The notes beneath the pieces were generated by a model, which was not told where the DNA came from, searched no databases, and saw only the letters and a program-made list of their open reading frames with translations. A DNA stretch of 61,730 nucleotides, from contig JAFPZX010000043.1 in assembly GCA_017417055.1 (NCBI GenBank), positions 1-61,730 on the forward strand, read 5' to 3'. Below are positions 1,194 through 53,149 of this stretch, in pieces (the stretch's first letter is position 1; each line of letters begins with the position of its first letter). The translations under genes and the position numbers were made by a program. This stretch comes from Anaerolineaceae bacterium. Lineage in GTDB: Bacteria; Chloroflexota; Anaerolineae; Anaerolineales; Anaerolineaceae.

Positions 1194-2034
1194 GTTTTCC
1201 TCCATTTTGTCTTACTGAGATATTTATCAATATCGATTGGCTGACCTGTTTGATCGTTTCCATCAATGATTCATATTTTACGAAGAACCATCGAAAAAGT
1301 ACAATGCCGATACAACATACTGTTATAAATGAAACGTATACTGAAAGAGCCGCAAAACAGATAAGGAGTACGTAAAATTTTCCGATGAGAGAAAATCAAT
1401 ACCGGCTTGTCATAATGAATGTGGCACCTGACAATAACCGGTGCCTGCTCTGCCACTCCCATACAAAGAAGCGTATTATATGTGGCTCTCTATCTTATTT
1501 TGAGTAAAACTTCGGTAAATATTTGTATCGTTTGGAAAAACAAAAAAAAACGCATATCAGCTTCTTTTCAGACACCGATATGAGATAAATGAAGTAGAAG
1601 AGCTTCAACAGTAATTATGTTTTTCTAACAGTTTGTCTGATAATTTTCCAAAATTTTTTAAAGTATAATAGAAAAACGATTTACGAGGAAAAATATGGAT
1701 TTTCAGGGAGGCAGACGATTAACTTACGAATACGCCATTCCTTACAAGAAATGGGAATTCTATACGGTGTAAACCACTTTCAAGCAAAAAAAGCTTTGAT
1801 ATAATATTAGAAAATATTATATCAAAAATGCAGGTTCGGCCTACTATATATAGTTTAATGAAAACTATAGTTACTTGTAGAAAGTAACATTGAACCTTAA
1901 CAAATTGGAATGGATTTTTTTACCCACGATTTCTACCACGATTTCAGGGAAAAAATATCTGGCAATATAAAATATTTTTGCAGTTTTACGACTAAAGCAG
2001 CAATAATCAGTACCGATTTGAACCTGTTAAATCC

Positions 2035-2090
2035 CGAGGGGGACGGCTCATAACCCGCAGGACATTGGCTCTAGTCCAATCCCCGCTATG
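2035..2090 (+). pseudogene. Degenerate tRNA-Met-like 3' half
   Basis: The segment has a CTCATAA anticodon-like loop (CAT anticodon), a variable-loop-like AGGAC, a 5-bp T-stem ATTGG/CCAAT and an acceptor-like CCCCGCTA end, in tRNA order. The T-loop reads CTCTAGT instead of TTCGANT, the anticodon stem is mismatched, and no D-arm or 5' acceptor strand is visible upstream. It is therefore probably a tRNA remnant of the kind left at integration sites, not a working tRNA. Confidence 0.35.
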
Positions 2091-2162
2091 AGAAAAATGG
2101 TGCCTAATATAAGAATTGTATTTTTTATAAATTATTTTCTGACTTGAGATTTTTTTATCGAT

Positions 2163-2203
2163 GAAAACCGCATATCAAATTCTGCAGCTGATATGCGGTT
2201 TTC
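2163..2203. repeat. Perfect 15-bp hairpin
   Basis: GAAAACCGCATATCA (2163-2177) pairs perfectly with TGATATGCGGTTTTC (2189-2203) across an 11-base loop. The T-rich 3' arm gives it terminator character in the plus direction. No gene ends just upstream, so it may be the terminator of a lost gene. A related GCATATCAGCTT word occurs near 1551. Confidence 0.6.
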
Positions 2204-2486
2204 TGTGGAAGATTCTGTCTTTGGTTAATCATGATGTTTCTAACAACATTTCTAACAAATTTTCAAACATTTTCAAAAGAAAATCTCAAAAAATATCGTT
2301 TTTCGAGGAAAAATACGCCATTTTTTCTGTTTTCATACGATTTCATTACTCGAAAGATATCCCTTACATGGAAAACTATAAACGCAGATCTCATTTTGAT
2401 TACTTCAGATCACTCCAATATCCATATGCAGGAACAACGGTGAATGTTGATGTTACACAAGCACACAAATACAGCAAAAAGAATAA

Positions 2487-3113
2487 TTGCTCTTTTTATT
2501 TAACGATACTCCCACTGAAGATTTTCATCTAAATGCCATGTCCTACATGTGCAATGATGTTCTGGATGTCATCAATTACGCCAAAGAAACGTACGGTACC
2601 GAGAAAGTCGGAGCCATGGGATACTCCATGGGCGGACGCATCGTTTCACAGATGCTCATCGAAGATATGATTAAATTCGATTCTATTGTCTTCGTGGCAC
2701 CGGCTGTTTCCCTCGCTGATATGGTTATCATGTTTGGCGGACAGGAAAACTATGACATGATGAAAGAAACAATTAAGGGAACTGATAAGATGTATCCCTT
2801 CCCCGGCGCATATAGTGAACAGCTTCTCTCCAATGAATTCTTCAATGACCTGGAAGCTTATGGAGAGGATATGGCCGAACTGGCTGCTGCGAAATACGAT
2901 GGCAATTCTCTGACCATCTATTCCACCAATGATTCCATCGTAAGACCTTCTGTATCACAGAAATGTACAGATGCATTCGGTTCTACTGTCATCACAGAAA
3001 GCATCCTGGATCACTCCTATAACTTCTATGGACAGGATCCTGCCACAGTCGATGCTTTGAACACCGCAATTGTGAGCTTCTTCACTGCAGATCTTGCGAA
3101 AAAATCTTTCTGA
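2487..3113 (+). pseudogene. Alpha/beta hydrolase, 5'-truncated
   Basis: The readable product has the nucleophile elbow GYSMGG (Ser47), a late acidic segment (YSTNDSIV) and a final His (LDHSYNF), as in serine alpha/beta hydrolases. The first strands and the oxyanion HG motif are missing. Family-like sequence begins at about residue 8 (DTPTEDFH); the preceding residues look like chance sequence, and there is no good ribosome site. About 80-100 N-terminal residues, probably including a signal peptide, seem lost at a junction near 2508. It is probably non-functional and lies at the edge of the decayed stretch. Confidence 0.6.
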
Positions 3114-3210
3114 ATAATATTTAATTGTTGGAGAAGGTGCCTCAGGAATTATGAGACATCTTCCTCTATATTCAGCATAATAACAATAGAAAATTTTATT
3201 TTGGAATTAA

Positions 3211-3942
3211 TTAATCCTCTAATAACTGACGGATCAGCTGTTCTCGATGATTTATGAACATTGATGTAATTTGGTAACTTCCTGTTTCCTCATATTCTAC
3301 CGGATGAATCAAACCGTCATCAAAGCTCAGTATTTCCGCACCTGGAATTGCAGTCAGAATTGGTGAATGTGTGACAATTATAAATTGAGCGCCTGCCTGA
3401 GCGGAGCGGTAAATTTCGATAAACATGGTGAGCTGCCGCTGAGGAGAAAGAGCAGCTTCAGGTTCATCGATCAGATTGAGACTGTGCGGGCGGAAATTAT
3501 CCTGGGCTGTCTCCAGAAAACTTTCGCCATGTGATTTCCGATGTAAATGTTTCGCTTTTGATTGGTCCTCTTCCGTATATTCTTCTTCTTTTGTCGCTAC
3601 GTTGTAGAAACTTTCAGCTCTGAGAAAATAGCCCCATTGTGTTTTTACAGGTCCTTTGAAAAGTCTTATAGCTTGATAGAGCTCGGAATGAGAATCAAAG
3701 GTTGAAAAATTGTAATTCTTTGTACCGCCTTCAGGATTAAATCCATAGGCAATAGCGATTGCTTCCAGCAATGTCGATTTCCCGCTTCCATTTTCGCCGA
3801 CAAAAAAGGTTATCGGCTGATGAAATTTCAGGTTTTCCAGGCCGTTGATTGCCGGAATATTCCGAAGATAGCTTTCAGGAGATATCCTTCGCCAGTCTAT
3901 AGAAAGTCCGCTGATTGGCAATGGGCTGATCATATCAGTCAT
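3211..3942 (-). CDS. AAA-type ATPase (COG3910-like, ABC/SMC fold)
   Basis: 243 aa. Walker A is GENGSGKST at residues 49-57; the ABC-ATPase Walker B is LNLIDEPEAALSP at about 155-167, followed by the IIVTHSP switch His. No membrane partner is encoded nearby, so this is not a transporter. The arrangement matches small stand-alone predicted ATPases of the COG3910/AAA_15 type, related to RecF/SMC heads, whose role is unknown. Upstream (3943-3965) there is a TATATG box about 10 bases before the ATG and no clear ribosome site. The MBL-fold gene ends 76 bases away in the same direction. Confidence 0.82.
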   Translation of the reverse strand: MTDMISPLPISGLSIDWRRISPESYLRNIPAINGLENLKFHQPITFFVGENGSGKSTLLEAIAIAYGFNPEGGTKNYNFSTFDSHSELYQAIRLFKGPVKTQWGYFLRAESFYNVATKEEEYTEEDQSKAKHLHRKSHGESFLETAQDNFRPHSLNLIDEPEAALSPQRQLTMFIEIYRSAQAGAQFIIVTHSPILTAIPGAEILSFDDGLIHPVEYEETGSYQITSMFINHREQLIRQLLED

Positions 3943-4018
3943 CTTTACTCATATAAAGCTTCATATAAAGTGGGAACAGTCCCTTTCCTGGACTGCCCTT
4001 TGATTGTAGCTTTGGTCA

Positions 4019-4603
4019 TTATTCCAATTCAATTGTTTCTCCGTAATGCATGCGCAGCAGGTTTTCCGGTGTGAATTTCATAGGATCGGCATCAAAAAAG
4101 TGCATCGGCGTATTGTGCTTGGCTCCGATCAGATTTGCACATTCCGTGGCTTCTTCCGGACCCATGTTATAAACACCGTCGATCGGGAAGAACGCGTAAT
4201 CGATATTCTTGTCTTTCAGAGCAGCCATTTCCGGGATCATTGAGGTATCCCCCGGATGGTAAACCTTAATCCCGTCAAAGGTCAGCACATACCCGACCGT
4301 GTTATCCGGATGGTGGTTCTGATTACCGCCGGCAGCAACCGTTTCGATCTTTACACCCTTGATATCGAAATTATTATGGCTCAGATCCGGATTCAGCGTC
4401 TGCGCCACTCGCAATACAACACAGTCATCCTTCTGCGTCACCTTTTCGATCACATTATGGTCAAAGTGCTCATGCGTTGACAAAACGATATCGGCCGGAT
4501 CAGTGTAATCACCGTCATAATACGGATCAATATAGATGACCACGCCTTCCGCGGTCTTGATTTTCATGGAAGCATGTCCGATCAAAGTCAATGTTGGTTT
4601 CAT
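4019..4603 (-). CDS. MBL-fold metal-dependent hydrolase
   Basis: 194 aa metallo-beta-lactamase-fold protein. The metal motif HxHxDH is THEHFDH at residues 43-49; further metal ligands are likely in VYHPGDTS and in the terminal MHFFD segment. It resembles the small YtkL/UPF0173-like hydrolases, which are cytosolic with unknown substrates. An upstream in-frame ATG (4633) exists, but AAAAGGGGAT sits 6-7 bases before the ATG at 4603, which I take as the start. Confidence 0.85.
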   Translation of the reverse strand: MKPTLTLIGHASMKIKTAEGVVIYIDPYYDGDYTDPADIVLSTHEHFDHNVIEKVTQKDDCVVLRVAQTLNPDLSHNNFDIKGVKIETVAAGGNQNHHPDNTVGYVLTFDGIKVYHPGDTSMIPEMAALKDKNIDYAFFPIDGVYNMGPEEATECANLIGAKHNTPMHFFDADPMKFTPENLLRMHYGETIELE

Positions 4604-4672
4604 ATTTATCCCCTTTTCTACCAGTAAAAACAAATATCACTTGATCAAAAAAATAAACATCCTGCTGAATGT

Positions 4673-6286
4673 TCATATTTCTGCATTTTGTTTATCTACA
4701 CGTATTATTTTGCAGGTATGTTTTCTTTTACCCGCCGGAGCATCTTTATCATAATTGATTCCGACGAGTAAAATCTCACACCCATAATACCGGAAAGCAT
4801 CCGGATAATTTTGGCGGAGAATCTGATCAATCGCACCGTCAGCGGAGAGATTCCACTTCAATTCAATAACGAGAATCGGCCAATCAGAATCACGTTTCGG
4901 CAGGTAAACAACATCCGCATATCCTGAACCGGCAGGCAATTCCTCCCATTGCAGATAATGGTCACGGTAAGTATAATACGCAAGTTTGATAACACTGCGC
5001 AAACTATCCTCTTTGTTATAATGCAGAGGAGCGGTTTCTTCTTCATGAATCTTTTCGATTTGCGCTCCAACAGCTTCCTCATTTTCATGAATCGTATCCA
5101 GGAACAACTGATCACTCTCCGCCAAACGCTTTAGCGTTTCAGCATGATTTACATCCCGGATGGATTTTTGAAACTCCAGCCGGATTTCTTCATTAGGAAT
5201 CGTCACTGTCTGGCTTTCTGAATTGTAAGCCAGATACCCCAGATGAATCAGCAGCGTAAGTACATCATCTTTATTTCGGAAAGTTGTCAGATCATTGGCG
5301 AAACCCTTTGTATCGACTTTTACATCCACACCGCCGATCAGTTCAGCAATCGTTTTTGTCAGACCATTGTAATCCTGGCTGATATATCGCATCAGACCTT
5401 CCGACGCGGAAGTTTCTGTCCAGAAAGAATCAAAATCATCATTTTCAATAGCGATCATGACAGAATTCGGATTATAAACAGAGCCAACATCTTTGAATGT
5501 ATATCCATCATACCACTGCTTCATGGTTTCAAAACTGACTTTGTTCGTCTCACACAAATTCCGCACTTCCGCCTCTGTAAAACCAACATATTCGCCGAAT
5601 TTGCGTGGTTTGATCATTGTATATTCCTGAAAATCGGAAATTGCGGATTGCGATCCATCCTTTTTGATGGGGAGAATGCCCGTCATATAAGCAGAAGCAA
5701 TGGCAGCAGGCGTAAAATTGTTGTTTTTAAACCAGCCTCTGAGCAGATTAAAATAGCGGTCCTGTGCCTCCGGATCCTGCTGCGTTTCCCGAATCATCGC
5801 ATCCCATTCATCAATAATAAAGATGATTTTCGTTCCCGTTTGTTTGACAAGTGCCAGCAGACATTCATTTATCGATGAATAACACTCAAGATCGGGATAA
5901 AGCGAAACAACATCAGCTGTCAGTGCATCGGTTATCATAACGGGAACATCTTTAAGAGAAATTCCCCGCGCTTTCGCCGAAGACACAAATCCGCTGATAT
6001 CCAGATTGATCACATGATACTGATTCAGGTGAAATTTGTATGTCGGATCATCCGCTATTGCATACGAATCAAACAACGCAGCGGAATTGCAGCTTTTGTC
6101 ATAATAAGCGCAAAGCATTTGAGCAGCATAAGATTTTCCGAAACGTCTGGGACGGCTGACACAGGTAAGGTTCCTGCTGGTACCGATAAGGGGATTCAGC
6201 AAAGCAATCAGCCCGGTTTTGTCGACATAATTACTCTTGATAATTCGTCTGAATCCTTCATTCCCCGGATTTAAATAAATTCCCAT
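4673..6286 (-). CDS. AAA-ATPase-like/PD-(D/E)XK nuclease family protein
   Basis: 537 aa. The N-terminal half is an AAA-ATPase-like domain (PF09820 type): it opens with VDKTGLIALLN, has a P-loop-like SRPRRFGKS at about residues 43-51 and an acidic IIFIIDEWD Walker B. The C-terminal part is a PD-(D/E)XK-type nuclease fold (PF08011 type) with Asp in GYADVVYLP and the ExK pair in LVIELKWN. The family is abundant in anaerobic gut bacteria; its role is unsettled, with defence or mobile-element associations suggested. GGAAAGAG precedes the ATG. It is divergent from the HAD gene. Confidence 0.85.
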   Translation of the reverse strand: MGIYLNPGNEGFRRIIKSNYVDKTGLIALLNPLIGTSRNLTCVSRPRRFGKSYAAQMLCAYYDKSCNSAALFDSYAIADDPTYKFHLNQYHVINLDISGFVSSAKARGISLKDVPVMITDALTADVVSLYPDLECYSSINECLLALVKQTGTKIIFIIDEWDAMIRETQQDPEAQDRYFNLLRGWFKNNNFTPAAIASAYMTGILPIKKDGSQSAISDFQEYTMIKPRKFGEYVGFTEAEVRNLCETNKVSFETMKQWYDGYTFKDVGSVYNPNSVMIAIENDDFDSFWTETSASEGLMRYISQDYNGLTKTIAELIGGVDVKVDTKGFANDLTTFRNKDDVLTLLIHLGYLAYNSESQTVTIPNEEIRLEFQKSIRDVNHAETLKRLAESDQLFLDTIHENEEAVGAQIEKIHEEETAPLHYNKEDSLRSVIKLAYYTYRDHYLQWEELPAGSGYADVVYLPKRDSDWPILVIELKWNLSADGAIDQILRQNYPDAFRYYGCEILLVGINYDKDAPAGKRKHTCKIIRVDKQNAEI

Positions 6287-7389: not shown

Positions 7390-8121
7390 ATGAAAAAAAT
7401 CTTGTATGGCTTCTTTTTACTTTTTATAATATCTCACAGAAATGCATATGCGGATCCAACTGAACAGACGAACATAAATGAAGCCCATGCAAAACTCTCC
7501 GGCATGGAAATCGATTATTGGCTTTATACACCCGAAACCGTCAGTGGGGATATGCCTTTGATCGTGTATCTGCATGGCGGGACATCCAAAGGGAATGACC
7601 TGGACCTCCTCATAAAACGGGAAGGATTCCCTCAGTACGTAATACAGGGAAAACTCAATATCCCGGCTTATGTGATCATGCCACAGGCACCGGAAGAAAT
7701 TCGTTCCTGGAATGAAATCGGCAATCAGATTGTCGAATTGGCAGCCATCACTGTGGATCAATACCCGATCGATTCGGGCAAAATCTCACTAACCGGGCAC
7801 AGTATGGGCGGTATCGGCACATGGGAAATTGGCTTTGCGCATAAGGACTTTTTTTCCCGAATCGCACCGCTCAGCGGAACGATCAGTAAACGTCTGCAGT
7901 CGGCAATCAGTGAACTCACGATACCCGTATGGTCGATCATCGGAAGTGATCCTTCAGACCAAAACGCTTTCAGCAGCAACACTTCGATTTTTCCTCAAAT
8001 AGAAAAGAATAATCCAAACGCGCGATTGACGATTATGGAAGGTGCTAAACATTGGGAAGTCGTCAAAGCCTATCTTCAATACGACATAATCAATTGGCTC
8101 ATCGGATCTGATACTCAATGA
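7390..8121 (+). CDS. Secreted alpha/beta hydrolase (esterase/PHB-depolymerase-like)
   Basis: 243 aa with a signal peptide at residues 1-21 (hydrophobic core then NAYA). The oxyanion region is VYLHGGTS (about 59-66), the nucleophile elbow GHSMGG has Ser138, an acidic residue is likely in IGSDPSD, and the catalytic His is in GAKHWEVV. This fits secreted esterases of the prolyl-oligopeptidase-like/feruloyl-esterase-like group; the substrate is unknown. It is followed by a terminator-like hairpin at 8146-8181 shared with the convergent peptidase gene. Confidence 0.85.
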   Translation: MKKILYGFFLLFIISHRNAYADPTEQTNINEAHAKLSGMEIDYWLYTPETVSGDMPLIVYLHGGTSKGNDLDLLIKREGFPQYVIQGKLNIPAYVIMPQAPEEIRSWNEIGNQIVELAAITVDQYPIDSGKISLTGHSMGGIGTWEIGFAHKDFFSRIAPLSGTISKRLQSAISELTIPVWSIIGSDPSDQNAFSSNTSIFPQIEKNNPNARLTIMEGAKHWEVVKAYLQYDIINWLIGSDTQ

Positions 8122-43419: not shown

Positions 43420-44325
43420 TTAGAAAACAGGTTCAGGAACAGTCTTCTTCTCATTGAATTTAGTAAGGAGTTCTGCAGCCTTTTCGTAATCAGCAATTGT
43501 CTTATTCAGGAAAGTGCAGGCTTCAGCAGTCGTTACATTGAAACGTTTCGACAGCATATTTACATTTTCTATTAACTGCTCTGCATCTCTGTATTCAATT
43601 CTTTCGTTAGCATATTCTTCCGCGTATTCTTTAGCATATTCTTCCGCGTATTCTTTAGCATATTCTTCCGCGTATTCCTGCATCATTTTGGACATGATAC
43701 TGCTCATTTGTTTACTCCCTTCTTCGGTATGTTTATAATATCTGATTTGCTTTGACGCTTCCGGAAATTCATTGTCGGAAAAATCATTTTCACGAAAATG
43801 AGTCATCAATCTTGCTGTTTTCGTTCCATCATTGATTTTCGCATTCACAATAATGCGATGCAGCCCATCATCAATAACTTTTCCGGTTTCCCTTATCACA
43901 GAATCAATATTGCACACAGTTTTATCTGTATCAAAGAGATCAAACTCAGTAATATAGATAACATATACCTCAACAACATCCCGAAAATCCGTACCTTTCG
44001 ACGTATGCCGCGCGGTTATGGCAGATGCATTATAACGTATTCTGCGATAATGATCATCACTATCCATCCGCTGAACTTCAACATTGATCTGTTTTCCGTC
44101 AGCTGTTTCACATAAGACATCAAGACGAACACCTCTTCCTACTAAATTCGGGATGCTGTCCTGAGCTGTAACACTGATCACTTTCAACGAATCATCGCCT
44201 AAAATCGTCCGAATCAACTCCTGACAGGCGTCTTTGTCCTGATACATTAAATTGAATAACAAATCGTCTATCGGACGGAACATCATCACATTTTGAACAT
44301 TCGGCTGTTTCGTTTTCATTTTCAT
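43420..44325 (-). CDS. Rpn/PDDEXK_2-family nuclease or transposase-like protein
   Basis: 301 aa. The PD-(D/E)XK core is near residues 55-85 (GRGVRLDVLCETADGKQINVEVQ: Asp, then ExQ in place of ExK), typical of the Rpn/PDDEXK_2 group. The C-terminal half carries tandem EYAEEYAK-type repeats (about 210-235) built from 24-base units, which can vary in copy number. Function is unclear; some members promote RecA-independent recombination. A near-identical paralog lies at 52286-53149. A TATGAT box ends 6 bases before the ATG, suggesting leaderless expression. Confidence 0.88.
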   Translation of the reverse strand: MKMKTKQPNVQNVMMFRPIDDLLFNLMYQDKDACQELIRTILGDDSLKVISVTAQDSIPNLVGRGVRLDVLCETADGKQINVEVQRMDSDDHYRRIRYNASAITARHTSKGTDFRDVVEVYVIYITEFDLFDTDKTVCNIDSVIRETGKVIDDGLHRIIVNAKINDGTKTARLMTHFRENDFSDNEFPEASKQIRYYKHTEEGSKQMSSIMSKMMQEYAEEYAKEYAEEYAKEYAEEYANERIEYRDAEQLIENVNMLSKRFNVTTAEACTFLNKTIADYEKAAELLTKFNEKKTVPEPVF

Positions 44326-44426: not shown

Positions 44427-45542
44427 TCAGAACTTCTTCAGCGCTTTCAGCTCAGCGGTCAGACGTGCGCGGCGTTTGAACACACCTCGCAGCAGTCGAA
44501 AAGGAAGCAGGAACGGGAGCAGTATCTTGTGACGATAGAAAAATGTATTGTAATTTTCAATCTGTTCCATTGTCGGGAAAATGCGGTTAAAAATATACCG
44601 CCATTTACCGCTTTTACCGCCGCCTGCTTTGCTGATCTTGTTCCCAACACTGTGTTGAACAGTTCCATAGGTTCCTGAGCTAACTATATAGACAAGCATC
44701 TCCAGTTCATCTTCCGTCAATTCTTTTCCATTGAAAAGATCAAGAGAAAGACTGCGAAAATGGCTTTCAAATTCAGAGACTCCAAGCTTTTCAAGCTCTC
44801 CGGTGACCTTTTTCATATCCGGTGATGTTTTTTTCAGAATCACGTAAACATCCAGCAGAGAACGCAGTCCGGTACCACTGATGGAGTAATGCTTATACGC
44901 ATGAGCAAGAATAAAAACATAAAAATCTTCAGGAGTAAAATGCCAGCCGAATAGATTGTCCGGATCCTTAATCAGCCATTCTTTCACATTACTGTAATAC
45001 TCAGCAATTGCCCTGTCAAAAGCTGCCTCAAACAATAACCAGTGCATTTCAAAAGTCAGCACCGGATTTTTATAATAGTGATCATGTTTGCCGTCCTTCT
45101 CTTTTCCCTCCGTAAATCCAAGTCCAAGCATGATTTCACGCACGTCATCTCTTCGGGCAGGTTCAAAGAGAATATCATGATCACTGAATTCGCGCATCCC
45201 GTATTTGGGGTAAAGATCCTTGACCAGAGCGCCTTTTAACGGCATATACCAGATGCCGTTTTCCTCCATTTTTTCCAGAACCGCCTTTTTTTCCTTGTCG
45301 AACAAAGCAGTTTTCCGTATTGATCGTGCAATGCGCAAAGAGGAACGCTCGTCACGAACCCCGGCAGACTCCAGCGCCATTGCAGCCGCCGCGTCAAGCA
45401 TATGCCGGCTGGACTCCCGGTAAACCGCATCCAAATCCATCGCCGCCACCCGTTCCGCGTCAGGACTTACTTCATTGACCGCACATCCAAGCAGATAAGC
45501 CAGATTAAAAACCGTTTGTAAATTAATTTCTGATGTTTCCAT
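44427..45542 (-). CDS. Nucleotidyltransferase-fold protein of the peptide cluster (PF14907 type)
   Basis: 371 aa. The middle part (about 90-200) has MPLKGALVKDLYP followed by MREFSDHDILFEPARRDDV, the Gly/Ser and Asp-x-Asp pattern of the NTP_transf_5 (PF14907) family, and KNPVLTFEMHWLLFE downstream. Members occur with peptide-modification clusters that contain PqqD and HPr-kinase-like proteins, as here; a nucleotidyl or other group transfer on a peptide or small ligand is inferred. Last gene of the cluster; it begins 29 bases after the ABC exporter. Confidence 0.75.
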   Translation of the reverse strand: METSEINLQTVFNLAYLLGCAVNEVSPDAERVAAMDLDAVYRESSRHMLDAAAAMALESAGVRDERSSLRIARSIRKTALFDKEKKAVLEKMEENGIWYMPLKGALVKDLYPKYGMREFSDHDILFEPARRDDVREIMLGLGFTEGKEKDGKHDHYYKNPVLTFEMHWLLFEAAFDRAIAEYYSNVKEWLIKDPDNLFGWHFTPEDFYVFILAHAYKHYSISGTGLRSLLDVYVILKKTSPDMKKVTGELEKLGVSEFESHFRSLSLDLFNGKELTEDELEMLVYIVSSGTYGTVQHSVGNKISKAGGGKSGKWRYIFNRIFPTMEQIENYNTFFYRHKILLPFLLPFRLLRGVFKRRARLTAELKALKKF

Positions 45543-45571
45543 TTTTTATCTTTTTCCCTGACCGCTGACCA

Positions 45572-47209
45572 CTAAAAAGCCACCGTCTTATCGCAAATCG
45601 CCAGTGCCGCCTTGCGATGGGTAACAATAATCACTGTCTTGTCAGTGAGAGAGCGGAGGTTTTCCAAAAGCTGCTTCTCCGTCACGTCATCCAGTGCGGA
45701 CGTTGACTCATCCAGCAGCAGGATTGGCGCGTCGGAAAATATCGCCCGCGCAATGGCGAGCCGCTGCATCTGGCCCTCCGAAAGTCCCGAACCTCGTTCA
45801 CCGAGAAGCGCATCCGGATCCGTGACAAACTCATCCGCACAGGCGACTTGCAGGGCATGTTTCAGCCGGTTCTCATCCCCTGCTGCCTCCGGTTCCGCAA
45901 AACTGACCACCTCGCGGATCGTTCCGGTCATCAGCGCGTTCCCCTGCGGGACATAAGCAAAAAGCCGCCGCCATGAAGCATCCAACGGCAGCTCTCCATC
46001 AGAGGAAAGCAAACGAATTTCACCGGCATCCGGCGGATACATCGCCATCAACAGCTTCAGTACCGTGCTCTTCCCGCAGCCGCTGTGTCCTGTGAAAGCA
46101 ACCGTTTCCCCTTTATGAATTTCCAGGGAAAAATCTTTCAGAACAACAGGCGATCTTTCCTCTGTTTCATAGGTGAAAGCGATATCACGCAGCACAATTG
46201 ACGCAAAGGAATCACGATAAAACCGGCGGATCTCTTCCTCACCGCGGGCTTTCCCGTCATCAGCAAAAGTCTCGGCATCCATCAGCCGTTCCGCACTGGC
46301 GGTCATGGCATACCAGCGGGGCAGATAACCGGAAATGTTAGCGAAGGGACCCTGCACCTGCCCGATGAGCTGCATGACAGCCGTCAGCGTCCCGAAAGTG
46401 ACTGTCCCATGTAAAATCCCGTAAGCGCAGTAAACCGCCCCAATGAGATACATTCCCTGCATCGCGGCTCCGAATCCGATGTTCGCCACATTGGAAAAAT
46501 TATTACGCTTCATCCGGGCAGCTTTATGCTCCGTCATCTTCTCCGCTGCCTGCCGTTCGGTTTGGCCTTCCGCAGCAAAGGATTTGATGAGCATCAGGTT
46601 AGCAATATGCTCCTGGAAAAATATCCGCAGCCGGCCATCGCTTTCCTGAATGTTTTTATGCAATTGCTTGAGCACTTTGCGGAAGCCATAAGTCAGTCCC
46701 GCCAAAGCCAACCCGCCGGGAATCAGGATATAGGCAAACCAGCGGTCGAGCGCGATGATCATGATCAGAGCAGAGACCAGGCGGACAACCGTCCCGATCA
46801 GTCCGGGCAGGATCTCAACGACGCCATTGGCAACGACCGTCGTATCATTCGTCAGCCGGTTCACCCATTCCGCGGTATGAACAGCGGAAACAGCAGAATA
46901 GTTTTTCCGGAGAATATTACTCAACAGCCGCTGTTTGAAGGTATTTTCAATATCAGACCGCGCCAGTTCATAAATCCGGCGGATAAGGGCTGAAATAGCA
47001 AGCTGAACGATCACCAGGCTAATAATGAGGATTATATACCGTCGGAAAGCAGCCGCATTTTTACTGACTGCGCTGTCCACGATATTCCGCAGCAGCAGCG
47101 CATAAAGCACACCGATTCCGCCGTGGATGGCCTGGAGCAGGGTCAACGCAAGGATAAAACCTTTTTTCTTTCCGGTGACGTTCCATAGCCAGTGAATCGT
47201 GTTATTCAT
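45572..47209 (-). CDS. ABC exporter, fused membrane and ATPase domains
   Basis: 545 aa. Six membrane helices (about 15-290) precede the ATPase: Walker A TGHSGCGKST, Q-loop YVPQGN, signature LSEGQMQRLAIARAI, Walker B ILLLDEST, switch VTHRK. No N-terminal C39 peptidase domain is present, so leader removal would be done by a separate enzyme, perhaps the adjacent S26-like protein whose gene overlaps this one by 8 bases. Probably exports the matured peptides. Confidence 0.92.
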   Translation of the reverse strand: MNNTIHWLWNVTGKKKGFILALTLLQAIHGGIGVLYALLLRNIVDSAVSKNAAAFRRYIILIISLVIVQLAISALIRRIYELARSDIENTFKQRLLSNILRKNYSAVSAVHTAEWVNRLTNDTTVVANGVVEILPGLIGTVVRLVSALIMIIALDRWFAYILIPGGLALAGLTYGFRKVLKQLHKNIQESDGRLRIFFQEHIANLMLIKSFAAEGQTERQAAEKMTEHKAARMKRNNFSNVANIGFGAAMQGMYLIGAVYCAYGILHGTVTFGTLTAVMQLIGQVQGPFANISGYLPRWYAMTASAERLMDAETFADDGKARGEEEIRRFYRDSFASIVLRDIAFTYETEERSPVVLKDFSLEIHKGETVAFTGHSGCGKSTVLKLLMAMYPPDAGEIRLLSSDGELPLDASWRRLFAYVPQGNALMTGTIREVVSFAEPEAAGDENRLKHALQVACADEFVTDPDALLGERGSGLSEGQMQRLAIARAIFSDAPILLLDESTSALDDVTEKQLLENLRSLTDKTVIIVTHRKAALAICDKTVAF

Positions 47210-47672
47210 GACGCAGCACCTTTTTCAGCAGCGGCAGCACACCCAAGGTACGGGCTGTTTTCACCGCGAAATTCCGTCCCCGGCGCAGGAAAACCCGCAC
47301 AGGGTAAATGGCGGTCCAAAATCTAACATAACGCCGGTAATTTTTATCGGTCACGGAATAGGTCTTTCCTTTGCGGCGAAATTCTGTCAGCACACCGATT
47401 ACCGCATCTGCCGGGACATGCTCGATCATATAGGTATTGTCCCCGCGGATCAGATACCGGTCACCATCCACCCCGATTACCCGGTGCAGCACATAATCAG
47501 ACCCTCGTTTATATAAAGCGACATCCTGTGGCTCCAGACGTTTTTCGGGCACACGGATCACCACCAGGTCCCGGTTCTGCCGCAGCATGGGTTCCATGCT
47601 CACGCCCCGTGTCCGGTAAACCAACACCCCGTCCCGTTTCAGAATCTCTTCAAACGTCGCTTTTTCCATCAT
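47202..47672 (-). CDS. S26/S24-type signal-peptidase-like serine protease
   Basis: 156 aa. The catalytic Ser25 is in RGVSMEPML; the second block is DVALYKRGSDYVLHRVIG, giving Lys55 and His63 as candidate bases, and RGDNTYMIEHVP is the usual third block. There is no N-terminal membrane helix; the C-terminal part is basic (Arg-rich) and may bind a membrane. Proposed role: cleavage of the precursor leader, by analogy to exporter-linked peptidases; not shown. It overlaps the exporter gene. Confidence 0.8.
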   Translation of the reverse strand: MMEKATFEEILKRDGVLVYRTRGVSMEPMLRQNRDLVVIRVPEKRLEPQDVALYKRGSDYVLHRVIGVDGDRYLIRGDNTYMIEHVPADAVIGVLTEFRRKGKTYSVTDKNYRRYVRFWTAIYPVRVFLRRGRNFAVKTARTLGVLPLLKKVLRHE

Positions 47673-47702
47673 GTGAGGTAACTGTTTAGTACCTGGCGGC
47701 GC

Positions 47703-47810
47703 AGCACACAGTACAGTTTTTTGTGCGGGCTGCCTGCTCTATAAGGTGCGAACTTCGCTCGTTCGATTCAGAGCAGGAGCTTCGCCAACAAAAAACTGTC
47801 CAGGTGTGCT
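47703..47810 (-). repeat. Nested-hairpin element, cluster copy 1
   Basis: Paired arms in order: AGCACAC (47703-47709)/GTGTGCT (47804-47810); ACAGTTTTTTGT (47713-47724)/ACAAAAAACTGT (47788-47799); CCTGCTCT (47733-47740)/AGAGCAGG (47770-47777); inner CGAAC/GTTCG (47749-47765). The internal loops carry GCGGGCTG and AGCTTCGCCA. It fills the gap between the peptidase and PqqD-like genes. Confidence 0.75.
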
Positions 47811-47828
47811 TCGTGCCTTCGCAGTGCT

Positions 47829-48089
47829 TTATTCTTCAATTGCGTTGATGGAGCGCAGCTTTCCGAGAATTTCCGCCACATCCGCAGCAATCGTTTCCCG
47901 CGGAGCATCGTAATTGGCGCACATGGCATCCACGATGGCGGTTTCCGTGGTTTCTTCTTTCAGGCAGTTCACGATGAAGGCCGCGGTTTTGTTGGACCGC
48001 ACGATCCCGCTGAACGCCTCCGCACCTACCGGTACGAGGAACTGCGTATCGTCAATATCCTGTGTAATAAAATCATCTTTCAGTTTCAT
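47829..48089 (-). CDS. PqqD-like peptide recognition protein
   Basis: 86 aa, matching a stand-alone PqqD/RRE domain: a beta-hairpin start (MKLKDDFITQDIDDTQFLVPVG), NKTAAFIVNCLKEETTETAIVDAMCANYDAP, and the helix TIAADVAEILGKLRS. These domains bind the leader of a RiPP precursor and hand it to the radical SAM enzyme, which is encoded just upstream. I start at the ATG at 48089 with GGAAAGGA ahead. Confidence 0.85.
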   Translation of the reverse strand: MKLKDDFITQDIDDTQFLVPVGAEAFSGIVRSNKTAAFIVNCLKEETTETAIVDAMCANYDAPRETIAADVAEILGKLRSINAIEE

Positions 48090-48110
48090 TTGTAATTCCT
48101 TTCCTAAGCA

Positions 48111-48227
48111 CAACGTGGTCTGCCCTGCTGATGCGGCGAAGCCCGCACAGCAGGGCGCAGCTCCTGTCCTGAATTATTTGGACGAAATCCGTTCCTTACA
48201 GGACAGGGTCTTTCGCTGAACACGTTG
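48111..48227 (-). repeat. Nested-hairpin element, cluster copy 2 (two-armed)
   Basis: Outer stem CAACGTG (48111-48117)/CACGTTG (48221-48227) encloses two hairpins: CCCTGCTG (48123-48130)/CAGCAGGG (48148-48155), and CTGTCCTG (48164-48171)/CAGGACAG (48199-48206). In reverse, the second hairpin reads TAAGGAA then an inner stem-loop then AATTC, like copies 1 and 3. Confidence 0.7.
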
Positions 48228-48343
48228 TTGAGTCTTTTCATCAAGGGAATTAATATTCTCAACTACCCTAACACAGCATTACCGTCATCATTTCTGCAGT
48301 CAGCACAACAGCAAATAACAGGCTACCTTTCCTTGGTTCCATA

Positions 48344-48450
48344 CACATCCGTGCAGTCTTTCTGTGCCGGCTGCCTGCTCTGTAAGGAATGAGCTGACGC
48401 TCATAGATTCAGAGCAGAAGCTTCGCCAGCAGAAAGGCAGACCCGATGTG
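48344..48450 (-). repeat. Nested-hairpin element, cluster copy 3
   Basis: CACATC (48344-48349)/GATGTG (48445-48450); CTTTCTG (48358-48364)/CAGAAAG (48430-48436); CTGCTCT (48375-48381)/AGAGCAG (48411-48417); inner ATGAGC/GCTCAT (48389-48404). It keeps the GTAAGGA and GATTC words and the AGCTTCGCCA loop of copy 1 but changes both sides of the stems. Located between the PqqD-like and radical SAM genes. Confidence 0.75.
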
Positions 48451-48455
48451 CTTCA

Positions 48456-49769
48456 TCAGCAGATCGGGGACTCGCCGCCTTCGGACTCCTGTTTCTGTAC
48501 CATGCGTTTGAGGGCGTCTATTGCCATCAGCTCATGGACCTCACGACAGTGTTTGTCCTGCACAGGACAGGCAGCAAAGCTCGTGCAGTCCGGCAGGAAA
48601 GGGCACTTGCGGCACTTTTCCCGTGTACAGTCCACCCGGCAGAATTCGCGCCGTGCAGCCTCATCCGTCACACCATTCCATATGTCGCCAAAGCGGCTTT
48701 CCGCCGGACAATGTTCGCAGGGGTAAAGGCTGCCATCCGGAGTGATGACCACACTGCCGCCATCCGCCATGCAGTGGTTGGTGCGGAAGTTCAGTCCCAA
48801 TCCCAGGAAAGGCGTAGTCCTGAATCCGGCAGCTTCGATGAGCGGACGGACATCCCGGATCTTTTGCCACAATGCCAAATCTCCTTCACTCATACGGACG
48901 TCATTGAGCGGGCAGAAATAAAGCCCGACCTTTTCCTTGTGCGAGATCCCTGCATTCAGGTCATCAAGGAATGCCGGGATGCGATCCCAGTTTTCCCCGT
49001 CCACATTGCAGCGGATGTTGACCGTGATCCCGGCCTCAGCCATGAGGCTCACCGACTCCATCACCTGATGATAATAATCCTCATAACTCCGGTAGTGCTT
49101 GCGGTATTTGTAATCCGGCTCTGCTCCATCCATGGAAATCTGAATGTGATCCAGATGCCAGTCACCGGCCATCTTTTCGATGATTTCCGGGTTGATGAGG
49201 GAGCCGTTGGAGATCATGGAACTTTTATATTCCAGCTCGGCCTCCCTCATGCCTTCGCAAATTCGGTCAATGGTACGCACACCCAGCAGCGGTTCCCCGC
49301 CAAACCAGGACAGTTTCACCTTATCACTGATATGGGTATCGAGGATATAACGGATGGTCTGTTCAACGATCTCCAGCGTCATGGTGACCTGCTTCATGCC
49401 TTCTTCGTAGCAGTAAATGCAGCGGGCATTGCAGCCGAAGGTCGGCAGGATGGTATATCCCCGCACACCCTTCTTTTGGTTGTAGACCCGCACAAGGGAG
49501 GAAATCTGATTATAGTAGGCACACTCGTCTTTCCCTTCAGGGACAAGGAACTGCGCCCGGATCAGATCATCATACCCCTCACCTGCCCGCGCGGAAGAAG
49601 GCAATTCACCCTCAATACACTGCTTCGTCAGGTTGTTAAACACATACCGCTTCTCGCCCTGCTCAAAAGCCAGGACGTACTGGGAAGGAATGTAAGTGAC
49701 AGCGAGCCGAGGTGTAACCGGAGGCAGAAGCTTTGCCAGTGTCTTGTCGGATTTACGTATTTCGATCAT
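48456..49769 (-). CDS. Radical SAM/SPASM peptide maturase
   Basis: 437 aa. The 4Fe-4S/SAM motif CNARCIYC gives Cys113, Cys117 and Cys120. Later blocks are WFGGEPLLG and the SPASM region (about 330-420) with CMADGGSVVITPDGSLYPC and a dense run of Cys (FCRVDCTREKCRKCPFLPDC) for auxiliary clusters. The N-terminal 90 residues resemble a leader-binding extension. It should install thioether-type crosslinks in the Cys-rich precursors encoded just upstream; that is inferred from family and context. A TACAAT box near 49792-49797 (minus) may be its own promoter. Confidence 0.9.
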   Translation of the reverse strand: MIEIRKSDKTLAKLLPPVTPRLAVTYIPSQYVLAFEQGEKRYVFNNLTKQCIEGELPSSARAGEGYDDLIRAQFLVPEGKDECAYYNQISSLVRVYNQKKGVRGYTILPTFGCNARCIYCYEEGMKQVTMTLEIVEQTIRYILDTHISDKVKLSWFGGEPLLGVRTIDRICEGMREAELEYKSSMISNGSLINPEIIEKMAGDWHLDHIQISMDGAEPDYKYRKHYRSYEDYYHQVMESVSLMAEAGITVNIRCNVDGENWDRIPAFLDDLNAGISHKEKVGLYFCPLNDVRMSEGDLALWQKIRDVRPLIEAAGFRTTPFLGLGLNFRTNHCMADGGSVVITPDGSLYPCEHCPAESRFGDIWNGVTDEAARREFCRVDCTREKCRKCPFLPDCTSFAACPVQDKHCREVHELMAIDALKRMVQKQESEGGESPIC

Positions 49770-49833
49770 CTGAATATCTCAAAAAGTAAAGATTGTACAC
49801 AAAGTTGCTATTTACCTGATCTATAATTTTTGT

Positions 49834-49992
49834 TTATCTGGGGTTATCACAGGGAGCATCATCACTACAATCACCACAGGGACCACTATAACCTAAAGTA
49901 CCACCACCACAAGTATTAAGAGTACAACTGGTCAGAATTACATCATTCTGAAAATCCAGAACTTCCATGTTCGGTTTTTCGTACTTTTCCAT
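49834..49992 (-). CDS. Cys-rich RiPP precursor peptide 1
   Basis: 52 aa, too short to find by length alone, but supported by AAAGGAG 9 bases before the ATG and its position directly before the radical SAM gene. The leader-like part (MEKYEKPNMEVLDFQNDV) leads into ILTSC; the core that follows is Gly/Ser/Asp-rich with five Cys (residues 23, 28, 39, 42 and 48 approximately). Leader and ILTSC join are shared with the second precursor. The cores differ. The likely product is a thioether-bridged or otherwise crosslinked peptide. Confidence 0.8.
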   Translation of the reverse strand: MEKYEKPNMEVLDFQNDVILTSCTLNTCGGGTLGYSGPCGDCSDDAPCDNPR

Positions 49993-50090
49993 GATTTTAT
50001 TCTCCTTTCTCAAGAATCTCTGATAAACCTGATGTTTTCATCAGGGTATATCCATTTGATCTTCTGAGCAGGAGAAATGCTCCTATGGAA

Positions 50091-50295
50091 CTACCATAGA
50101 TTCATCATACAAGTATCTGACGGACATCCTGAATCGCCAGTACAAACAGGAATCGAATATCCATCCATATCAGCAAAACCGCATCCACCACAGCTGGTCA
50201 GGATCGCATTCTCACTGCTCAGATCAACAATCTCCATTTGAGGGGCTACATACTGCTCCCCCCCCCCCCCGATTCATATACGCATTAATTTCCAT
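50091..50295 (-). CDS. Cys-rich RiPP precursor peptide 2, interrupted by poly-G run
   Basis: Read from the ATG at 50295 (AAGGAAAGGA 8-9 bases ahead), the frame meets a run of 13 G (50258-50270 on the plus strand as C). With 13 G the peptide stops early after about 23 residues; with 12 (or 15) G it reads EQYVAPQMEIVDL...NAILTSC, aligning with precursor 1, and ends at 50091 with 67 residues and a core holding Cys at CGGC, PVC, GCP and TC. An internal ATG (in QMEIVDL) could give a short 48-residue form. Either a phase-variable switch or an assembly error. Confidence 0.75.
50258..50270. repeat. 13-base poly-C/G homopolymer inside precursor 2
   Basis: Thirteen C on the plus strand (G on the coding strand). 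The only such run in the window. See precursor 2 and findings for its frame effect. Confidence 0.9.
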
Positions 50296-50326
50296 TTTTA
50301 TATCCTTTCCTTATTTCGGCTGCCCG

Positions 50327-50484
50327 GGGGACTGGACCCGGAGGGGCCTGTACCCACTTCATGACATTCCAATGCCACCGAACAGTCGTTAATCCCTCAA
50401 TTCTATTCCTTCAACGCCCGGCAGACGTTTACCATTCCACGGCGTTTGTGAGATGGGTACAGGCCCACGAGCGGTCCAGTCCCC
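50327..50484. repeat. Long imperfect inverted repeat between precursor 2 and HPr-kinase-like gene
   Basis: GGGGACTGGACC (50327-50338) pairs with GGTCCAGTCCCC (50473-50484); after an internal loop GGGCCTGTACCCA (50344-50356) pairs with TGGGTACAGGCCC (50453-50465). About 95 bases lie between, with a weaker inner AACGCC/GGCGTT hairpin. Confidence 0.75.
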
Positions 50485-50495
50485 AATACACTTCA

Positions 50496-51236
50496 TTAAT
50501 TCATTCCCTCATACGCCACTCGGGCGGATTCAGGCGACTGATTACATCCCATTTCATAAAACTTCGCAGAACCAAGCAATCTTTTCTCCATCTCCAATAT
50601 CCGCCGCATCACCGCTGGATCCCGTGAGGTAAAAGCCCGCTTGAAAACCACGCCGAAGGCATCCGCCGGAGCGAGCGGCCGGATCCAATTCGCCTCACCC
50701 CGGGAAAGCGCGATGATGGCTTTCAGCGGAGCCGAAGCGTTCCGGCTCAGGCGATGCTTACCATTCCAGGGCGTCCCGTAAACCAGAACATCATCACCCA
50801 CAAAGCGCAGCAGCGGTTTGTCATCATTGACCATCCAGACCCGTTCACCATACACTTCCCGCCAATATCGGGCATGGGTGCTTTTTCCCGTTCCAGATGG
50901 AGCAGTGAAAAGATAGGCTTCCCCATCCATGCACAGCGCCGAACCATGTATCAGCAGCACATCATAAGCCGTCAAACCTTCCGCGATGAGTGAATGAATG
51001 GCGTTATTCTCCAGATAATGCTCCGCATGCCGGACCGGTTTTCTGCCTTCCGCAAGCGCAATTTGGTCAATGCCAAGCCGCATCCGCTCCATGTCCGCGT
51101 CCATTGGCTCCACTGTGAAGAGCGGGGCTTTTTCCGTCAGGTAATCCTGAAGAAAAGTCCGGTTCTCTTCATAAGAACAGCGGATCTCAATGGGAATTCC
51201 CGCCAGTTCTGCAGTGAAACAAATCCGATGCGGCAT
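50496..51236 (-). CDS. HPr-kinase-like protein of the peptide cluster
   Basis: 246 aa. It has an HprK-type C-domain: an LLIHGSALCMDGEAYLFTA strand, the P-loop APSGTGKST (112-120), then MVNDDKPLL (Asp pair) and a YGTPWNGKHRLS loop. The N-terminal HPr-kinase domain is absent and no HPr is nearby. Such proteins recur in RiPP clusters with PqqD and the nucleotidyltransferase-fold protein; phosphorylation of a precursor peptide or a carrier is an inference. First structural gene of the cluster. Confidence 0.82.
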   Translation of the reverse strand: MPHRICFTAELAGIPIEIRCSYEENRTFLQDYLTEKAPLFTVEPMDADMERMRLGIDQIALAEGRKPVRHAEHYLENNAIHSLIAEGLTAYDVLLIHGSALCMDGEAYLFTAPSGTGKSTHARYWREVYGERVWMVNDDKPLLRFVGDDVLVYGTPWNGKHRLSRNASAPLKAIIALSRGEANWIRPLAPADAFGVVFKRAFTSRDPAVMRRILEMEKRLLGSAKFYEMGCNQSPESARVAYEGMN

Positions 51237-51258
51237 TCATTATCCTTTCATTTTTCCG

Positions 51259-51323
51259 AAGCACGTGCGGGACAGGCACCTTGTGCCGCGGAGCCGGCAC
51301 GAGTGTGCCTGTCCCCACGTGCT
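51259..51323. repeat. Near-perfect 65-base hairpin between HPr-kinase-like and TetR genes
   Basis: GCACGTG (51261-51267)/CACGTGC (51316-51322); GGGACAGGCAC (51269-51279)/GTGCCTGTCCC (51304-51314); inner TTGTGCCG/CGGCACGA. There is no T-run on either side, so it is not a standard terminator. Confidence 0.75.
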
Positions 51324-51332
51324 CCGTATACC

Positions 51333-51977
51333 TCACACCACAAAACGCTGGAGGAGGATGTCGCGGAGCAGCAGCAGTTCCGATTCGGGATCAGATTCCG
51401 GACCGGGCTGATAGACCAGGCCGACCGCATATCGGGTGACAGCTGCCAGCATGATGTGCAGGGTCGCGGAAAACATTTGCTTTTCAGGGAAGTCCGTACG
51501 AAGGCTATGATCCAGCTTTGCCCGTTCATACATCGCATGGAACTGTTCCGCCAGCCCACTGATTATGGCCAAATAAGGTTTCAAAATCTCCGGAAGGACC
51601 TCTTCATTGGCAACATAGACGTTAAAAAACTGGTTGAAGCGCAGAATATCAGCATGGTTTCGGTACACATCAATAAAGGAATCCAGAAAGAATTCAAATT
51701 CCTGTCCGGCATTCATACCTTTACTGACAAGAGCTGCCCTCTGGCGGCTGTTTTCCGCGATGTATTTTTCCCAGACCCGGGTACTGATGGCAAGTACCAG
51801 TTCCTGCTTTGTACTGTAGTAACGGTAAAGCGTCGCGATTCCAACCCCGGCGGCCTTCGCCACATCGTTCATCGAGACCGGATTGATCGTCTTTTCTGCG
51901 AACAGTTTGAATCCTGCATCCAAAATCGTCTCCCGCCGTTCAGCCATCTCCGCAGCGTCTTTTTCCGTATTTCTCAC
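51333..51977 (-). CDS. TetR-family transcriptional regulator
   Basis: 214 aa. The N-terminal HTH (about 25-50) reads SMNDVAKAAGVGIATLYRYYSTKQELV, characteristic of the family; the C-terminal ligand domain is not recognised. The start is GTG (AAGGTGAGAAA ahead). It lies directly upstream of the peptide cluster in the same direction and probably controls itself and the cluster; paired TGATAGT words overlap its promoter. Confidence 0.9.
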   Translation of the reverse strand: MRNTEKDAAEMAERRETILDAGFKLFAEKTINPVSMNDVAKAAGVGIATLYRYYSTKQELVLAISTRVWEKYIAENSRQRAALVSKGMNAGQEFEFFLDSFIDVYRNHADILRFNQFFNVYVANEEVLPEILKPYLAIISGLAEQFHAMYERAKLDHSLRTDFPEKQMFSATLHIMLAAVTRYAVGLVYQPGPESDPESELLLLRDILLQRFVV

Positions 51978-52285: not shown

Positions 52286-53149
52286 TCAGGCATATTCGGC
52301 TTCGGTCTCCTCTGCCTCTGCTCGTTCGATGATTCTCTGCGCTTCCTCGTAATCCGCAATCGTCTTATCCAAAAAAGTGCAGGCTTCCGCCGTGGTCACA
52401 TTGAATCTTTTGGCGAGTTTATCGACATTTTGTACCAAAGTGACGGCATCACGTTCCTTATCACGTTCCTTATCACGCTCTATCACCCAATCATTTATTA
52501 TTTGTTCCATCACGCTGCTCATGGCTTTCGTCCCTTTCTCTGTATGCTTGTAATATCTTATTTGCTTTGATGCTTCAGGAAATTCATTATCTGTGAAATC
52601 CCTTTCCCGGAAATGTTTCATCAATCTTGCGGCTTTTGTACCATCATTGATTTTCGCGTTCACAATGACCCGATGAAGCCCGTCATCGATAAATTCACCT
52701 GTTTCTTTTATCACCGATTCCACATGACAAACCGTTTTTGTTGATTTTGTAATTTCGAACTCTGTTATATAAATTACATACACTTCCACAACATCTCTGA
52801 AATCCGTTCCTTTGGATGTATATCGGGAAGTTATCACAGACGCATTATATCGCATCCTGCGGAAATGGTCATCATTATCCTTCCGCTGAACCTCAACATT
52901 GATCAGCTTTCCGGTCCCTGTTTTACACAGAACATCCAGACGCACACCGCGCCCATAAAGATTAGGCACACTATCCTGCGCGGTCACACTAATCACAGTG
53001 ATCGCATCATCGTCAAGTATCGTCCGGATCAATTCCTGACAGGCGGCCTTGTCCTGATACATCTTGTCCTGATACATTAAATTGAAAAGCAGATCGTCAA
53101 TCGGACGAAACAGCATGACATTCTGAACATTCGGACGCTTGTTTTTCAT
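52286..53149 (-). CDS. Rpn/PDDEXK_2-family nuclease or transposase-like protein (paralog)
   Basis: 287 aa. Same family as 43420-44325 and very similar along the whole length (FRPIDDLLFNLMYQDK, GRGVRLDVLC, INVEVQRKDNDDHFRRMRYNAS, GLHRVIVNAKINDGTK). A duplicated MYQDK insertion and a shorter RDKERDKERDK run replace the EYAEEYAK repeats. It stands at the other side of the peptide cluster and in the same direction. TACAAT ends 6 bases before the ATG (53156-53161). Confidence 0.88.
   Translation of the reverse strand: MKNKRPNVQNVMLFRPIDDLLFNLMYQDKMYQDKAACQELIRTILDDDAITVISVTAQDSVPNLYGRGVRLDVLCKTGTGKLINVEVQRKDNDDHFRRMRYNASVITSRYTSKGTDFRDVVEVYVIYITEFEITKSTKTVCHVESVIKETGEFIDDGLHRVIVNAKINDGTKAARLMKHFRERDFTDNEFPEASKQIRYYKHTEKGTKAMSSVMEQIINDWVIERDKERDKERDAVTLVQNVDKLAKRFNVTTAEACTFLDKTIADYEEAQRIIERAEAEETEAEYA

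Follow-up and report, generated by a model that had tools for sequence, protein, structure and literature searches.

A RiPP cluster of an Anaerolineaceae bacterium with two precursors for one radical SAM/SPASM maturase, one of them probably switched by a poly-G tract

Why should one of two precursor genes in a cluster for a ribosomally synthesised and post-translationally modified peptide (RiPP) be broken by a run of 13 G close to its start codon? The question is raised by a stretch of 61,730 nucleotides (nt) from an Anaerolineaceae bacterium (assembly GCA_017417055.1, contig JAFPZX010000043.1, positions 1 to 61,730), which is referred to here as the window. At 44427–51977 the window contains a minus-strand array of genes for a TetR regulator, an HprK-like kinase, two short peptides, a radical S-adenosylmethionine (SAM)/SPASM maturase, a PqqD protein, an S26-like protease, an ATP-binding cassette (ABC) exporter and a PF14907 nucleotidyltransferase. 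These genes had been named in an earlier note on this DNA, and every one of them is found on the strand and at the position given there. Is the run of G a miscount, the mark of a gene in decay, or a switch? We consider it probable that these genes make a RiPP and that their one maturase has two substrates, of which one is constant and the other switchable by phase variation. The gene set recurs, the leader is conserved, and a G tract near the start of the precursor varies in length and frame among homologues.

Precursor 1 (50091–50295, minus strand) starts at the ATG at 50295, behind the sequence AAAGGA, and not at 50237. The frame from this ATG enters the 13 G at 50258–50270 and meets a stop codon at 50224. 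Past the tract, in a different frame that is offset by 1 relative to the ATG, lie the leader and core (EQYVAPQMEIVDL...TSC...). The short frame in the list of open reading frames begins too late, and both the tract that splits the gene and its true start had been overlooked in the earlier note. A homologue of this precursor is present in locus L007 at 7738–7941. Precursor 2 (49834–49992, minus strand, 52 amino acids) has no tract. It starts at the ATG at 49992, inside a listed TTG frame from 50013, and is comprised of MEKYEKPNMEVLDFQNDVILTS and a Cys-rich core; it scores 53.5 bits against the leader profile described below, its own leader being among the seeds.

Are such short frames real genes? 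Twenty loci with related maturases, 31–74% identical over the best segment, were obtained from one genome-contig scan. A leader profile was built from 20 short seeds and run against six-frame translations of loci, where 33 distinct segments scored 34 bits or more. Those found outside the seed are in L014, L055, L061 and L062, with three in L058 and extra copies in L007, L012, L015, L021 and L023. At least one such segment is carried by 17 of the 20 loci; the matches in L011 and L022 are weak (about 20 bits) and L017 has none. The leader consensus, Y-x-K-P-x-M-E-[VI]-[IV]-[ED], is followed by a loop and usually by a T-S-like end (YxKPxMEVIEL...DVILTS). With the Tyr and the M, E and V positions used as anchors, the Lys is found in 26 and the Pro in 29 of the 33 segments. 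Because this leader is common to 17 of 20 related loci, the short frames are, on comparison of their translations, genuine precursors beyond chance. A RiPP cluster is recognized by a conserved leader and a variable core beside a maturase and a RiPP recognition element (RRE) protein, and here the leader and PqqD are each present in 17 of 20 loci. The earlier note had proposed a RiPP cluster whose precursors may form an undescribed family, to be given up if the short frames were not conserved next to orthologous maturases; the leader is kept there, in support of the proposal.

The cores are acidic, variable and Cys-containing, with a net charge of -1 to -7 and 1 to 7 Cys in the 34 listed. Not among these 34 are the third segment of L015 and the weak matches in L059, L011, L067 and L046, whereas the weak L022 and the later-found L090 are included. 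The description of the peptides as Cys-rich is borne out in part: the cores do contain Cys, but 12 of the 34 have a single one. Of seven spacings compared with shuffles, C-X2-[DE] alone gave a P below 0.05: it was seen 28 times, with 13.0 in the shuffles (P = 0.0005), and 20 times against 11.4 when the two longest cores were removed (P = 0.0055).

The layout of precursor 1 is repeated in six other precursors, with 8 G in L004, 9 in L005, 7 in the second copy of L007, 6 in the second copy of L008, 6 in L020 and 8 in L090. In all seven an ATG, with a purine-rich site that resembles a ribosome-binding site, lies 18–33 nt ahead of the run of 6–13 G. Relative to the ATG the leader frames are offset by 1, 0, 1, 2, 1, 0 and 2, with no fixed direction; two copies (L004, from 7429, and L020, from 7767) are in frame and five are out of frame, in both of the shifted frames. 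Phase variation by a homopolymer calls for a long tract that sets the frame and for more than one frame among relatives, and these seven copies, with 6–13 G, fall into three frame classes. In the window, L004 and L008 the tract precursor stands beside a constant one. From these comparisons, the 13-G run probably acts as a random on/off switch of precursor 1. As the tract changes length by slipped-strand events, start codon and leader would come into one frame in a minority of cells, and a clone would always make product 2 and make product 1 in some cells only.

Alternatively, the out-of-frame copies, precursor 1 among them, may be decaying pseudogenes, with the constant precursor alone of importance. 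That five of seven tract copies are out of frame, and that the first copy in L007 has a decayed look, would suit this explanation. However, all seven copies keep an open leader and core past the tract, each with an ATG after a ribosome-binding-like site, and two copies are in frame, and we regard decay as quite unlikely.

Directly 3' of the G tract is an inverted repeat, GGTACTG..CAGTACC, at 7573–7592 in L005 and at about 7794–7812 in L020, with a shorter form in L004. It also encodes the TEQY of the leader, and it could aid slippage. Might the slippage be that of RNA polymerase or the ribosome at the tract, with frames mixed in constant proportion in each cell instead of a heritable switch? 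Homopolymers can slip at these steps, and the repeat past the tract in L005 and L020 could self-pair. Yet all three offset classes are represented, two copies being in frame, three at 1 and two at 2, and no single programmed direction emerges, so that this explanation is very unlikely.

The rarity of long runs bears on whether the tract is real. In the 4.4 Mb of the window's genome (G000) the 13-G run is the only G or C run of at least 10. Runs of at least 8 number four, against about 64 expected from the composition of the window, from which 0.05 runs of at least 13 would be expected. The first-examined loci, 471 kb in all, contain five runs of at least 8, four of them in these leaders (L090 counted). 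The pattern GGGGGTACTGARCAGTACC, with at most two mismatches, occurs in six places in 26 genomes, of which five are these precursors and one lies in a frame that resembles a response regulator (L085). A search for further tract copies in 308 genomes of one family and four of one genus returned only those already known and the interrupted first copy of L007. It is conceivable, if unlikely, that the cluster is an ordinary one in which both precursors are always in frame and the G were miscounted in sequencing or assembly. Long runs are error-prone, and the genome is a draft of 200 contigs, 85% complete and 5.5% contaminated. Against this, the six other precursors come from five other genomes and have 6–9 G in the corresponding position; in four of the six, too, the upstream ATG does not share the frame of the leader, and the window's run is otherwise unmatched in its genome.

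The balance tips slightly towards RiPP substrate choice being a contingency locus, in which poly-G slippage at the start of the leader would toggle one precursor while a second, with the same maturase, stays on, and isogenic cells would differ in their peptide mix. The tract-precursor layout recurs in several patchily distributed clusters, and in the window's genome, in which long G runs are rare, a glycosyltransferase gene (described below) is likewise broken at such a run. A number of observations weigh against the proposed switchable cluster and its chemistry. The tracts were compared between lineages, with one genome per species, and come from draft genomes, with a 13-G run liable to miscount. 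L090 is not an independent find, because a tract-motif search led to it; L020 and L090 share a genome (G445) and seem to be parts of a single cluster. In L005 and L008 the 'off' state is uncertain, because an ATG abutting the tract is in the leader frame. In the first precursor of L007 the tract is interrupted (GGGTGGGG) and the ATG is soon followed by a stop, and a run of at least 6 G is absent from 27 of the 33 leader segments. The C-X2-[DE] spacing is no general rule of the cores, as it is found in just 15 of 34, and C-X3-[DE], the spacing of PapB, is not enriched (15 seen, 12.3 in shuffles, P = 0.23). Across nine genomes, 39 of 43 runs of at least 8 fall outside the cluster and four within these leaders; nine of the runs are in the genome of L004 and 17 in that of L012. 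Fourteen of the 39 were read by eye and 38 were screened with a crude criterion for frames that break where the run lies, by which five were flagged. At one of these, clear by its protein family, an 8-G run in the window's genome (C157, 25413–25420; L160), a glycosyltransferase-2 frame (115.4 bits) stops 18 nt past the run and another frame is open for 512 nt; judged from these frames, it is possibly another phase-variable gene. A frame break is likely at a 10-G run in the genome of L004 (L106), with a weak Pfam match on one piece only, and the flagged runs L133, L099 and L103 may be chance. Frame breaks beyond the cluster therefore fit slippage as a general device, but a tract alone is no marker of this system.

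If the contingency reading is correct, the mixture of RiPP products would shift within a clone through tract length, without a regulator. Genome mining would also miss or truncate such precursors, because the frame is broken in five of seven copies and the list of open reading frames began precursor 1 late.

What kind of enzyme would serve the two precursors? The maturase (48456–49769, minus strand) has both the CX3CX2C motif (C113-X3-C117-X2-C120) and the Cys-rich C-terminal region of radical SAM/SPASM proteins. These three Cys and seven more in the SPASM region (333, 351, 386, 389, 395, 401 and 408) are invariant in an alignment of 19 sequences including that of the window, which is without the maturases of L013 (frame-broken in the draft) and L020 (cut by the contig end); in L004 both maturase and PqqD are complete. 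Radical_SAM scores 73.3 bits (cut-off 29.5) and SPASM (PF13186) 19.7 bits, slightly under its cut-off of 21.5. The best PDB profile match is 5wgg (E = 1.4e-18), which we take to be the SCIFF maturase CteB. The window maturase is below the cut-off of all 25 NCBIfam models listed, sulfatase maturases included. Closest is TIGR04463, a radical SAM/SPASM RiPP maturase family, which gives the lowest best E-value for the aligned sequences among the families listed and is matched by all 19 at 1e-10 or better; at 118.5 bits against a cut-off of 525, the window maturase is not a member. Assignment to the PapB ranthipeptide maturases (NF047865) was rejected, as was a PapB-type C-X3-D rule for the 34 cores, on a score of 95.3 bits against a cut-off of 340 and on the spacing result above. 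The anaerobic sulfatase maturases (TIGR03942), the clade that the earlier note had named as fatal to its proposal, were rejected at 67.4 bits against 349.45.

The other parts were sought around the maturase by tblastn at 1e-4 in the 20 loci, several of which are truncated by contig ends that limit the counts given here. The predicted leader-binding protein of PqqD type (47829–48089, minus strand; PF05402 55.0 bits, cut-off 23.4) is located 3' of the maturase in 17 loci. It would bind the YxKPxMEVIEL leader, and the maturase would then link Cys thiols to carbon atoms of the acidic core. Because the C-X2-[DE] spacing is in surplus, ranthipeptide-like thioethers between Cys and Asp or Glu are our first guess.

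The HprK-like kinase (50499–51236, minus strand), near the maturase in 10 loci, has no Pfam match at E 0.1 and weak NCBIfam matches to ScmC (E = 0.004) and HprK_rel_A (E = 0.006). Across 21 aligned relatives the Walker A motif SGTGKST, Lys118 and Asp138-Asp139 are invariant and His97 is nearly so. Paired by pattern, in an alignment without a lasso kinase, these residues agree with the His-Lys-Asp-Asp motif that lasso-peptide kinases, including the PadeK/ThcoK type, have in the excerpted text of one study (PMC9266682). The C-terminal Ser that is the substrate of the PadeK/ThcoK type ends one of the 34 listed cores. The PF14907 nucleotidyltransferase-like protein (44427–45542, minus strand; 120.8 bits, cut-off 31.2) has conserved Lys103-Gly104, Arg117 and Asp121-x-Asp123 and occurs in nine loci.

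The putative S26/S24-like protease (47202–47672, minus strand) occurs in 11 loci, in one as a fragment. Both profile matches are under the cut-off (S24, 19.5 bits against 23.3; TIGR02227, 27.3 against 47), and the protein has neither the curated score nor the membrane anchor of an S26 signal peptidase. Ser25-Met-x-Pro, His63-Arg64 and Gly77-Asp78 are nonetheless kept in an alignment of 16 sequences; His in place of the usual Lys is the mark of the Sec11/SipW type. By a simple hydropathy measure it has no membrane helix, because no 19-residue segment exceeds 1.6 and the highest is 0.97. Profiles of the kinase, protease and nucleotidyltransferase gave only weak signal-peptidase matches of use in the PDB. 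The ABC exporter (45572–47209, minus strand) is a permease-ATPase fusion (ABC_membrane 111.1 bits, ABC_tran 99.0 bits) with homologues of 53–68% identity in four loci, and there is no peptidase domain among its Pfam matches. The absence of a membrane helix from the protease and of a C39 domain from the exporter had both been claimed before, in agreement with these results. The TetR-type regulator (51333–51977, minus strand, GTG start; PF00440, TetR_N, 56.3 bits, cut-off 24) has a homologue of 49–50% identity beside the cluster in two loci, L004 and L020.

On this set of parts, the kinase would phosphorylate the peptide and the PF14907 protein would decorate it further, as PsmK and PsmN reportedly do for pseudomycoidin; the soluble protease would cut off the leader and the ABC protein would export the product. 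By analogy with lasso peptides, the product may plausibly be phosphorylated or nucleotidylated, cut and exported. We lean towards an antibacterial or signalling role, because an exporter and a regulator adjoin.

Where contigs allow, the gene order in the related loci is TetR-HprK-precursor-radical SAM-PqqD-(precursor)-S26-ABC-nucleotidyltransferase. Most loci are labelled as Clostridia or its families; the exceptions are L009 (Bacteroidales) and L021 (Planctomycetales). Seven of the 20 record titles give a ruminant sample (L006, L008, L009, L010, L014, L015 and L023), and six further loci have RUG names, presumably those of rumen genomes. L012 is an isolate, Sarcina sp. DSM 11001, whose 17.3 kb contain the maturase and two precursors but lack the remaining genes of the set. 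In L015 and L021 two consecutive kinase-precursor-maturase-PqqD sets point to tandem duplication. The comparison rests on other taxonomic groups, because the window is the sole maturase match in its own family (one of 147 genomes at 1e-40) and order (one of 400 drawn genomes at 1e-60). Matches were found in 14 of 300 genomes of L004's family at 1e-60, nine of them above 400 bits, and at 1e-90 in one of 250 of L005's family and one of 247 of L008's. This patchy distribution of the maturase suggests horizontal spread of the cluster. In viral contigs no relative of the maturase was found, and nothing matched the tract pattern exactly. L075 and L078–L082 each hold homologues of at least two of five parts (kinase, PqqD, protease, exporter and nucleotidyltransferase), and no maturase of the same protein family was found there, so these parts may be a set that is used repeatedly. 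In L079, from another genome, at 624–5994, homologues of the kinase, PqqD, protease and nucleotidyltransferase surround a Polysacc_synt_2 protein.

The cluster is flanked by paralogous genes for a PD-(D/E)XK transposase-family nuclease (PF12784) at 43420–44325 and 52286–53149, in the same orientation and with 76–85% identical DNA across the matched stretches. Its GC content is 51%, against 46% for the remainder of the window. Insertion through recombination between the flanking genes is possible. On either side of the PqqD gene there is an imperfect direct repeat (47718–47794 and 48359–48435) with two blocks of 29–30 nt, each 90% alike. An inverted repeat of 18 nt (89%) lies between the kinase and precursor 1 at 50344–50361 and 50449–50466, and the sequence at about 51260–51320 is hairpin-like by eye.

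How does this cluster compare with known systems? Among the open-access matches listed, none describes a phase-variable RiPP precursor in its title or the opening of its abstract, and no open-access paper was found that has HprK, PqqD and radical SAM together. A phase-variable bacteriocin was not found in the available part of a paper on homopolymers of P. acnes (PMC4746626), and Sarcina, PqqD and phase variation are all absent from the main text of a survey of bacteriocins in the Hungate1000 collection (PMC13289728).

The ranthipeptide system PapB/PapA resembles the cluster, in the published excerpts, in having a SPASM maturase and a core with Cys and Asp. PapB accepts Cys-Xn-Asp with n of 0–6, and Cys-Asp links at varied spacing, according to the same kind of excerpt (PMC9413430). 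Unlike PapB, the window maturase falls far below the NF047865 cut-off, the enriched spacing of its precursor family is C-X2-[DE] and not C-X3-[DE], and the cluster has an additional kinase, protease and nucleotidyltransferase. These extra parts recall lasso peptides (paeninodin, pseudomycoidin and those of rumen Butyrivibrio), which share PqqD/B1, the His-Lys-Asp-Asp kinase and, likened by annotation only, a nucleotidyltransferase, as far as the extracts of two papers extend (PMC9266682, PMC7533575). In the first, the PsmK kinase step is followed by a hexose addition that requires PsmN, a protein annotated as a nucleotidyltransferase; in the second, rumen genomes with lasso clusters have an HPr kinase in about 58%, PqqD in about 46% and an uncharacterised nucleotidyltransferase in about 30%. 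The window cluster differs in having a radical SAM maturase in place of the B2 and C proteins, and in the near absence of a terminal Ser from its cores. The kinase, nucleotidyltransferase-like protein and soluble S26-like protease are here combined with a radical SAM maturase, whereas in the literature compared the kinase and nucleotidyltransferase occur with lasso peptides. Finally, in the sources available in part, hypermutable G or C tracts, intragenic ones among them, switch the expression of phase-variable genes in Neisseria, Campylobacter and Helicobacter. The tract of the window is like these, but its gene is a RiPP precursor and its host is a different kind of bacterium.

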